From the NCBI RefSeq assembly GCF_004364155.1, contig NZ_SOAZ01000006.1, positions 62,001-126,000 of the forward strand: DNA of 64,000 bases. Reading direction: 5' to 3'. Source of the DNA: Fonticella tunisiensis. GTDB taxonomy: Bacteria > Bacillota > Clostridia > Clostridiales > Caloramatoraceae. Shown piece by piece: positions 48,095-49,381 of this stretch (within the stretch, counting starts at the first letter, position 1; each line of letters begins with the position of its first letter). The translations under genes were made by a program, and so were the position numbers. The notes beneath the pieces were generated by a model. The model was not told the origin of the DNA. It did not search any database and was given only the letters and a program-made list of their open reading frames with translations.

Positions 48095-48286
48095 ATGTCA
48101 AGAAGATGCGAAATATGCAATAAAGGTTTAGTATTTGGAATTCAATACAGCCACTCACATCGTAAATCAAACAGAACATGGGCACCAAACTTAAAAAGAG
48201 TTAAGGCTTTAGTTGATGGAACTACAAAGCGTATTTATGTTTGCACAAGATGTTTACGTTCAGGAAAAGTACAGCGCGCTCTTTAA
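48095..48286 (+). CDS. rpmB: 50S ribosomal protein L28
   Basis: L28 is a small 50S protein near the L1 stalk base. The 63-residue protein begins MSRRCEICNKGLVFGIQYSHSHRKS and has a second CTRCLRSGK pair, so it is the zinc-binding C+ form. I chose the ATG after AAGGAGGTGTTACAAT; a longer reading would start before the ribosome-binding site. It is alone on the plus strand, facing the thiN side and diverging from asp23, the same relative arrangement as in Bacillus. Confidence 0.98.
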   Translation: MSRRCEICNKGLVFGIQYSHSHRKSNRTWAPNLKRVKALVDGTTKRIYVCTRCLRSGKVQRAL

Positions 48287-48287
48287 T

Positions 48288-48318
48288 AAAAAAATGTGCT
48301 AATAAGGCACATTTTTTT
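48288..48318. terminator. Bidirectional terminator after rpmB
   Basis: AAAAAAATGTGC paired with GCACATTTTTTT (12 bp, 7-nt loop). Its right arm overlaps the stop codon of the convergent small membrane-protein gene at 48317-48319, so it serves both. Confidence 0.88.
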
Positions 48319-48493
48319 ATTTATATAAATTATTAAATCCTATTACGATAATTACAATGGATGCAGTTAAAACCCATATCCAGACGGGCAGAATAACTGC
48401 AAGAAGTATTCCTAGCCCTAAAAAAGCCACCGCCACAGGAAAGTATCTTCTAATATGTTTTATAAGTGGATGTTTTCTTCTACCATGGCCCAA
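48317..48493 (-). CDS. Small membrane protein, 58 aa, unknown function (second of a pair)
   Basis: I do not recognise this gene by name. It starts with TTG nine bases after AAGGAG, encoding a basic N-terminus (MGHGRRKHPLIKHIRRY) and then two closely spaced hydrophobic segments (FPVAVAFLGLGILLAVIL and WIWVLTASIVIIVIGF), giving a helical hairpin with the positively charged end inside. Its C-terminal half (LPVWIWVL..., FNNLYK) resembles that of the gene just upstream, so the two are probably paralogues. It is 21 bp downstream of that gene and ends in the rpmB terminator. The evidence for coding is the ribosome-binding site, the uninterrupted hydrophobic pattern and the paralogy. Confidence 0.75.
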   Translation of the reverse strand: MGHGRRKHPLIKHIRRYFPVAVAFLGLGILLAVILPVWIWVLTASIVIIVIGFNNLYK

Positions 48494-48514
48494 TCTGTAC
48501 CACTCCTTAGAATA

Positions 48515-48670
48515 CTACCTGTAATATAAATTGATTCCAAAAATGATAAGGACTATTCCAAGTATAACCAACCAAATCCATAGAGGCATCCAAAAAATTA
48601 TAAGTATTATTCCAAGCAATATCATTATAAAAGAATAAATGTTTCTGCTGCTTCGTCTTTTTTTAGGCAT
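48515..48670 (-). CDS. Small membrane protein, 51 aa, unknown function (first of a pair)
   Basis: I do not recognise this gene. It starts with ATG five bases after GGGGGG and encodes a strongly basic N-terminus (MPKKRRSSRN) followed by two hydrophobic segments (IYSFIMILLGIILIIFW and LWIWLVILGIVLIIFGI), ending NLYYR. The MPLWIWLVILG and INLYYR parts match the following 58-residue protein, indicating a tandem duplication. It sits after thiN, where Bacillus has the 26-residue SpoVM gene, but it is not SpoVM: SpoVM is amphipathic with one helix. A promoter with a mother-cell-like -10 lies just upstream. Confidence 0.8.
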   Translation of the reverse strand: MPKKRRSSRNIYSFIMILLGIILIIFWMPLWIWLVILGIVLIIFGINLYYR

Positions 48671-48696
48671 AAAAATCCCCCCAAAGTTACACATTA

Positions 48697-48724
48697 TATT
48701 ATATGCTCTTAAATATAAATATGT
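48697..48724 (-). promoter_or_regulatory. Candidate mother-cell (sigma-K/sigma-E-like) promoter of the small membrane-protein pair
   Basis: CATATAATA (48697-48705) preceded by AC 17 bp upstream (48723-48724) fits the sigma-K pattern mACm-N16-CATAnnnTA except one base, and CATATAAT is one base from the sigma-E -10. It also contains a TATAAT, so sigma-A cannot be excluded, though no -35 is near. Confidence 0.4.
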
Positions 48725-48742
48725 ACTCTGGAGGTTCCTTTT

Positions 48743-49381
48743 TTATATATCATGAGTTTTAATAACAAGTACTTCACCCGATGTAATTTTTATGCTGCAG
48801 ACGCTCCCAGTCATCTCATTGGAAACCCCATAGGCCCTTCCAAAGCTAATGGTGCCATTGTTAAGGCTGTACTTTAAGCCCGAAGTATATATACCTTGAG
48901 CATCTCCCTTAAGCGGTATAATCGATATAATATCCCCTCTATTCCCCTCTATGGTTATTTCATCCCTGCACAGATATATATATGAATCACTCGATGCAAT
49001 ATATCCTCTTATTCCCCTGTCATACAGGCTTGAAAGCAAAAATATGTTCCCAAGGCTGTGGTCTATTCTGCTCCCTACCCCTGCAAGTATGCAAATTTCA
49101 GTGCTGCCAAATTCAATCGCCTTTAAAACGCAAATCTCCGTATCGGTATAGTCCTTTTCCTTTGGAAATCGAATAATATTTACTTTACGACTTTCGAAAT
49201 GTTCCAAAATGCCTTTGTCAATCGAGTCGAAATCACCGACCAGATAATCAGGAATAATATTCCTTTTATATACATACTCAGCTCCTCCATCGGCACATAT
49301 AATTATGTCTGCGGTGGAGCATTCCTTTTCCACTATGTCTTCCTTGCCAAGTTTTCCATGAGCTATTATGACGGATTTCAA
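48743..49381 (-). CDS. thiN: Thiamine pyrophosphokinase
   Basis: ThiN transfers pyrophosphate from ATP to thiamine, giving the active cofactor, so it suits salvage of imported thiamine. The catalytic region IICADGGAEYVYKRNIIPDYLVGDFDSI (the core about residues 27-48) has the acidic ligands, followed by PKEKDYTDTEICVLKA and the DHSLGNIFLL motif that contacts thiamine. The C-terminal beta domain (IISIIPLKGDAQGIYTSGLKY) is present. The length of 212 residues is typical. It abuts rpe directly, and the order rsgA-rpe-thiN is that of Bacillus. Confidence 0.95.
   Translation of the reverse strand: MKSVIIAHGKLGKEDIVEKECSTADIIICADGGAEYVYKRNIIPDYLVGDFDSIDKGILEHFESRKVNIIRFPKEKDYTDTEICVLKAIEFGSTEICILAGVGSRIDHSLGNIFLLSSLYDRGIRGYIASSDSYIYLCRDEITIEGNRGDIISIIPLKGDAQGIYTSGLKYSLNNGTISFGRAYGVSNEMTGSVCSIKITSGEVLVIKTHDI

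Follow-up and report, generated by a model that had tools for sequence, protein, structure and literature searches.

In B. subtilis, SpoIVA reaches the forespore membrane via SpoVM, and the binding of SpoVM involves Gly486 in the C-terminal tail of SpoIVA. In C. difficile, transcription of spoVM is controlled by sigma-E, and CD25622, a 50-amino-acid gene upstream of spoVM, is co-transcribed with it (PMC5607322). SpoVM is nearly dispensable in this species, and a CD25622 insertion with a polar effect on spoVM caused no stronger defect than the loss of spoVM alone (PMC5607322). As this insertion adds nothing to the spoVM phenotype, the partner gene may matter little. CD25622 was described as mainly restricted to Peptostreptococcaceae (PMC5607322). 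In several clostridia, no SpoVM could be detected (Galperin 2012, PMC3533761). Two further systems are relevant to the locus described here. Sigma-K of C. difficile uses AC and CATATAAT (PMC3789822), and for the sigE-sigG hairpin of B. subtilis a translation block on read-through RNA has been proposed; RNA that starts at the internal sporulation promoter cannot fold this hairpin (PMC5942855).

Here we analysed a window of 64,000 nucleotides (the whole stretch of DNA examined) from Fonticella tunisiensis, a member of the Caloramatoraceae, in which a sequence-only reading had pointed to two open reading frames of 51 and 58 codons in the interval between thiN and the rpmB hairpin. Both are present on the minus strand (Table 1), and we call them genes A and B. 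They probably encode small mother-cell sporulation membrane proteins of a "spoVM module." Gene B starts 21 nt past the stop codon of A, with AAGGAG about 9 nt 5' of its start codon. Its stop codon overlaps the hairpin common to the rpmB side, so that there is no space for a further gene such as spoVM; the terminator scan did not list this hairpin. Judged by the neighbour asp23, the closest relatives are Fervidicella metallireducens and Caloramator species, followed by Clostridium species. The host genome carries SpoIVA and sigK (sigma-K), and SpoIVA was found in 60 of 60 relatives. The genome sets used are samples, some of them incomplete.

Table 1. Features of the A-B locus, in positions of the window
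Feature	Position	Strand	Basis
thiN (thiamine pyrophosphokinase), upstream neighbour	48743..49381	-	conserved synteny
Promoter-containing hairpin: 5' arm CCUCCAGAGU.., -10 apical, 3' arm ..ACUUUGGGGGG holding the Shine-Dalgarno sequence of A, then AUUUUU	48677..48734	-	folding energy, layout in relatives, arm covariation
Sigma-K-like (mother-cell-type) promoter: AC 48723-48724, 17 nt, CATATAATA 48697-48705	48697..48724	-	conserved in relatives; chance level in window alone
G6 Shine-Dalgarno sequence of gene A, within the 3' arm of the hairpin	48677..48682	-	sequence
Gene A, 51-amino-acid membrane protein, ATG at 48670, 51 codons (MPKKRRSSRNIY...MPLWIWLV...INLYYR)	48515..48670	-	conserved frame, coding-type substitutions
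Gene B, 58-amino-acid membrane protein, TTG start at 48493, 58 codons (MGHGRRKH...LPVWIWVL...NNLYK)	48317..48493	-	orthologue of spoVM-preceding gene, sister families
Hairpin flanked on either side by T-runs, in the rpmB-B interval; putative terminator common to both strands	48287..48320	.	sequence inspection
rpmB (ribosomal protein L28), convergent neighbour	48095..48286	+	ORF/synteny

The slot had been taken for the spoVM position, and the gene order in relatives agrees with this. In two sister families (f2, which comprises Clostridium species, and f3) the order is thiN - B - spoVM - rpmB, and SpoVM peptides of these families, such as MKIVAIKLPKFLSSFIKFIFRKS, are matched by NF033436. Many Clostridium genomes have spoVM only, without B. 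In location, between thiN and rpmB, A and B agree with SpoVM. In the Caloramatoraceae (f1), 16 of 17 genomes have B in the slot, the exception (G001) being a genome whose slot was not located, and A is present in 10. None of the 17 has spoVM in the slot, the gap from B to rpmB being too short wherever it was read. A SpoVM search of the 17 whole genomes gave fragments only, with a best E value of 0.077; the same search gave E < 1e-7 in most sister-family genomes. Neither A nor B matched the SpoVM models NF033436 and PF08183 (cut-off for a peptide of about 26 residues), and hhalign of the B profile against the SpoVM profile gave a probability of 0.04%. By gene order, B is the gene normally preceding spoVM, with spoVM itself lost in the Caloramatoraceae. 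The order in another family, f23 (12 sampled genomes), is thiN - A - B - rpmB, without spoVM. The Caloramatoraceae and f23 are without detectable SpoVM, yet they keep SpoIVA and A/B-type genes. Two observations concern single groups. SpoVM peptides of three Clostridiaceae loci (L025, L028, and L032, g16), such as MKIIAFKLPGILSAIIKFFTKKK, reach 17 bits with the NF033436 model, below its cut-off of 31, so standard annotation will overlook them. In one Caloramatoraceae genome (L031, G016), A is split over two frames, perhaps through a sequencing error or because the gene is decaying.

The -10 element with AC 17 bp before it that had been described upstream of A is present, and position, pairing, and promoter together had been called unusual. 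In the window alone it is at chance level, as AC-N17-CATANNNTA was found 2 times with 2.3 expected and CATATAATA once with 1.9 expected. The promoter is significant only because it is conserved in relatives. We compared 38 upstream regions, 14 from Caloramatoraceae, 17 from f2 and f3, and 7 from f23. CATANNNTA occurs in 11 of the 14 Caloramatoraceae regions (1.4 expected from shuffles, maximum 5) and in 13 of the 17 f2/f3 regions. GTAACA is often conserved and sets AC 16-17 nt upstream of the -10 element, and the combination of a -35 AC, a spacing of 16-17 nt, and a -10 CATANNNTA, which defines a sigma-K promoter, is conserved in f1 and f2. The scan listed no sigma-A promoter (TTGACA, 16-18 nt, TATAAT) at the site, and a loose sigma-A pattern was seen in 1 of 14 f1 regions and in none of the f2/f3 regions. 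The CATA promoter motif was not seen in the SpoVM-less family f23. It is possible that the conserved promoter serves the early sigma-E and not the late sigma-K, or both, which would alter the timing and leave the mother-cell assignment unchanged. CATATAAT is one base off the sigma-E -10 element, and spoVM of C. difficile is under sigma-E control (PMC5607322). We lean against this possibility, as 0 of the 38 regions contained the sigma-E pattern (-35 ATA, 13-15 nt from CATACAMT; -10 relaxed to CATA.AAT), whereas AC stands at 16-17 nt in 16 of the 31 f1/f2/f3 regions. Of the two sigma classes proposed from the sequence, the -35 AC and the spacing fit sigma-K and do not fit sigma-E. These comparisons support a conserved promoter of the mother-cell (sigma-K) type.

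The promoter lies within a long hairpin with a folding energy of -23.6 kcal/mol (z -4.2). An equal layout is found in 5 further Caloramatoraceae, with z values of -3.6 to -8.2. The 5' arm stands just past thiN, and a T-run follows the 3' arm in most Caloramatoraceae that have the hairpin. The arm sequences vary between genera. When arms were swapped between 5 divergent genomes, cognate arms gave -17.7 to -32.0 kcal/mol, with weaker pairing for all non-cognate combinations in the same row; in Clostridiaceae, used as controls, cognate and swapped arms did not differ. The hairpin is missing from nearly all Clostridiaceae and from some Caloramator. It has a GC-containing stem followed by AUUUUU, and its loop exceeds the range of the terminator scan, so it was not listed. 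The layout is of the sigG type: the 5' arm is upstream of the internal start, the ribosome-binding site is in the 3' arm, and the arms covary. A start at the internal promoter would give a transcript without the 5' arm. Read-through transcripts of the thiN operon would fold the hairpin, leading to termination or to a closed ribosome-binding site of A, and transcripts from the sporulation promoter would begin past the 5' arm, so that A would be translated. We infer from this layout that the hairpin may terminate transcription or block translation. A promoter in a hairpin would be a compact means of silencing sporulation genes behind a housekeeping operon. In family f23, the thiN-A intervals of L070-L085 (for example, L073) contain hairpins that look like strong terminators (z up to -8.1) and carry a GTATNATATA-like element in their loops; their layout resembles the promoter-in-hairpin of the Caloramatoraceae, and the motif differs.

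A and B have the features by which we define the A/B type, namely, 50-60 amino acids, a basic N-terminus, a hydrophobic stretch with a central P and W, and a gene that immediately precedes spoVM or occupies the spoVM slot. We searched 291 whole Clostridia genomes separately for B, for SpoVM, and for A, and compared the matches by position. For 71 of 140 placed spoVM genes, an A/B-model match in the orientation of spoVM lay no more than 260 nt upstream, at a median distance of about 30 nt (mostly 20-50 nt). All genomes with both B and SpoVM matches have them adjacent except G197, where the B match is weak. Reading 60 further spoVM upstream regions added about 15 small hydrophobic ORFs with two segments, directly upstream of spoVM, that the models had missed. 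Across the Clostridia (71 of 291 genomes) an A/B-type gene stays beside spoVM, and on these placements it is a common spoVM partner. It could be argued that A and B are general envelope membrane proteins of the thiN operon, expressed during growth, and that nothing more than inherited gene order ties them to spoVM, since the slot lies within the conserved housekeeping cluster rsgA-rpe-thiN-rpmB-asp23 and thiN is only 72 nt upstream of A. This is improbable, because B follows spoVM and not thiN or rpmB where the cluster is broken: at L086, L087, and L091, B adjoins spoVM with no thiN or rpmB within the 3-kb locus. The conserved mother-cell promoter and the hairpin between thiN and A also argue against growth expression, as does the enrichment of B in genomes with SpoIVA, which was found in 73 of 80 genomes with B versus 135 of 211 without B (Fisher p 1e-6, a statistic that ignores phylogeny). 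Seven genomes with B have no SpoIVA match, and 4 of these are rated more than 90% complete. Some genomes show other arrangements. In Clostridium sp. OS1-26 (L127, 495-2831) an insertion puts B and spoVM about 1.8 kb from rpmB. In L260, L271, and L287 (f55) a different gene precedes spoVM, encoding 87 amino acids with three hydrophobic segments (e.g., MGGFIITIIIALIAGWLGN...) and ending 86-114 nt before spoVM. In G117, G191, G253, and G292 (f28), SpoIVA appears as two matches of weaker E value per genome and is perhaps split or duplicated.

The analysis confirmed that A and B are real, conserved coding sequences; their frames, whose conservation in relatives had been named beforehand as a test, are kept across several families. 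Third codon positions carry more changes than the other two in 5 of 5 genome pairs, with, for example, 11/3/29 and 7/4/17 changes at codon positions 1/2/3. Orthologues of A were found in 10 of 60 relative genomes, all Caloramatoraceae (38-53% identity), and those of B in 28 of 60, many of them in the sister family. Across an alignment of 26 B members from many families, one G and the central P never vary. The 38-residue hydrophobic stretch with its central proline suggests a membrane hairpin. Two hydrophobic helices had been described; AlphaFold2 gave one continuous helix (residues 10-56) with a low pTM of 0.37, so that the fold is uncertain, and Foldseek of the predicted model against viral models gave no match. 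A syntaxin segment matched among PDB profiles (E 0.0099) was set aside as a match of transmembrane composition. As anticipated for genes this short, A and B escape annotation: they belong to no family in Pfam, NCBIfam, or PHROGs, sub-threshold matches in Pfam and NCBIfam were scattered and mutually inconsistent, and Rfam gave no family match at the locus. Hairpins that close the ribosome-binding site, as proposed here for A, are common in type I toxin-antitoxin systems, and the size, hydrophobicity, and basic N-terminus of A and B generally resemble the small hydrophobic toxins of such systems or holin-like proteins. We regard such an identity as very improbable, as the chromosomal position is fixed over many families, the genes are tied to spoVM and are not mobile, and PHROGs and Pfam gave no match and Rfam no antisense RNA family. 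That A and B are chance ORFs in AT-rich DNA, short and without family-library annotation as they are, is refuted by frames conserved over several families with third-position-biased substitutions, by Shine-Dalgarno sequences on both genes, and by the invariant G and P.

The common (P/L)xWIWxL core noted earlier (PLWIWLV in A and PVWIWVL in B) and the N-L-Y end are present in both proteins. BLASTP of A against B gave 42% over 33 residues (E 6e-7, single comparison), and a profile-profile comparison of the two families gave a probability of 97%. A and B are distantly paralogous; the duplication proposed from the sequence is probably not a recent local event. In a weak tree (36 rows, 54 columns), B of five families forms one clade (support 95/86) apart from the A-like proteins, and there is no supported position for the Caloramatoraceae A genes. 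A-like genes occur in at least 3 families. As B orthologues and A-like genes are found in several families, we rejected a recent duplication in the host genome as unlikely. Given the separation of the five-family B clade from the A-like proteins, the A and B types seem older than the families sampled, and different lines would since have lost A, B, or spoVM.

As mother-cell sporulation proteins, A and B would be produced by the sporulating mother cell and would insert in the mother-cell/outer forespore membrane via the hydrophobic stretch that has P-x-W-x-W at its centre. In this membrane A and B may act with SpoVM, or without SpoVM in the Caloramatoraceae, at the membrane-coat interface covered by SpoIVA, possibly as a SpoIVA anchor. 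The C-terminal tail of SpoIVA, including the glycine, is kept in most SpoVM-less Caloramatoraceae nearly as in SpoVM-bearing relatives, which fits a remaining membrane partner and is no proof of one. A stronger proposal would be that in the Caloramatoraceae and in f23 the A/B proteins took over the job of SpoVM, anchoring SpoIVA to the forespore and allowing coat assembly without SpoVM; we consider this tentative and rather unlikely. A strict replacement of SpoVM by A was considered and is weakened, as A and B coexist with SpoVM in family f25, and both A and SpoVM are missing from some Caloramatoraceae. As members of the spoVM module, A and B are good candidates for overlooked spore-building parts. 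A widespread, unannotated family that lies beside spoVM and is kept where SpoVM was lost would be a concrete candidate for the missing SpoIVA-localising factor.

Among characterised genes, CD25622 is the closest by position. It resembles A and B in size, in its place directly upstream of spoVM, and in its nearness to rpmB, and, on position and size, likely belongs to the same family. C. difficile has spoVM, whereas the host has two genes and no spoVM. The small genes upstream of spoVM occur in many clostridial families and not mainly in Peptostreptococcaceae. SpoVM itself (NF033436, PF08183) shares with A and B the genomic slot, a mother-cell-type promoter, very short length, and membrane association. 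Unlike the KLPKF-type amphipathic helix of SpoVM, with about 22-29 amino acids, A and B have 50-58 amino acids, are hydrophobic, and show no profile similarity to SpoVM. The promoter resembles the P2 promoter of C. difficile sigK in its -10 CATATAAT and -35 AC (PMC3789822), although P2 drives a different gene and the start site here is a predicted one. The hairpin shares with the sigE-sigG intergenic hairpin of B. subtilis the long layout around an internal sporulation promoter (PMC5942855). In contrast to that hairpin, the 3' arm here enters a T-run and could terminate transcription too, and the gene that would be controlled encodes a small membrane protein.
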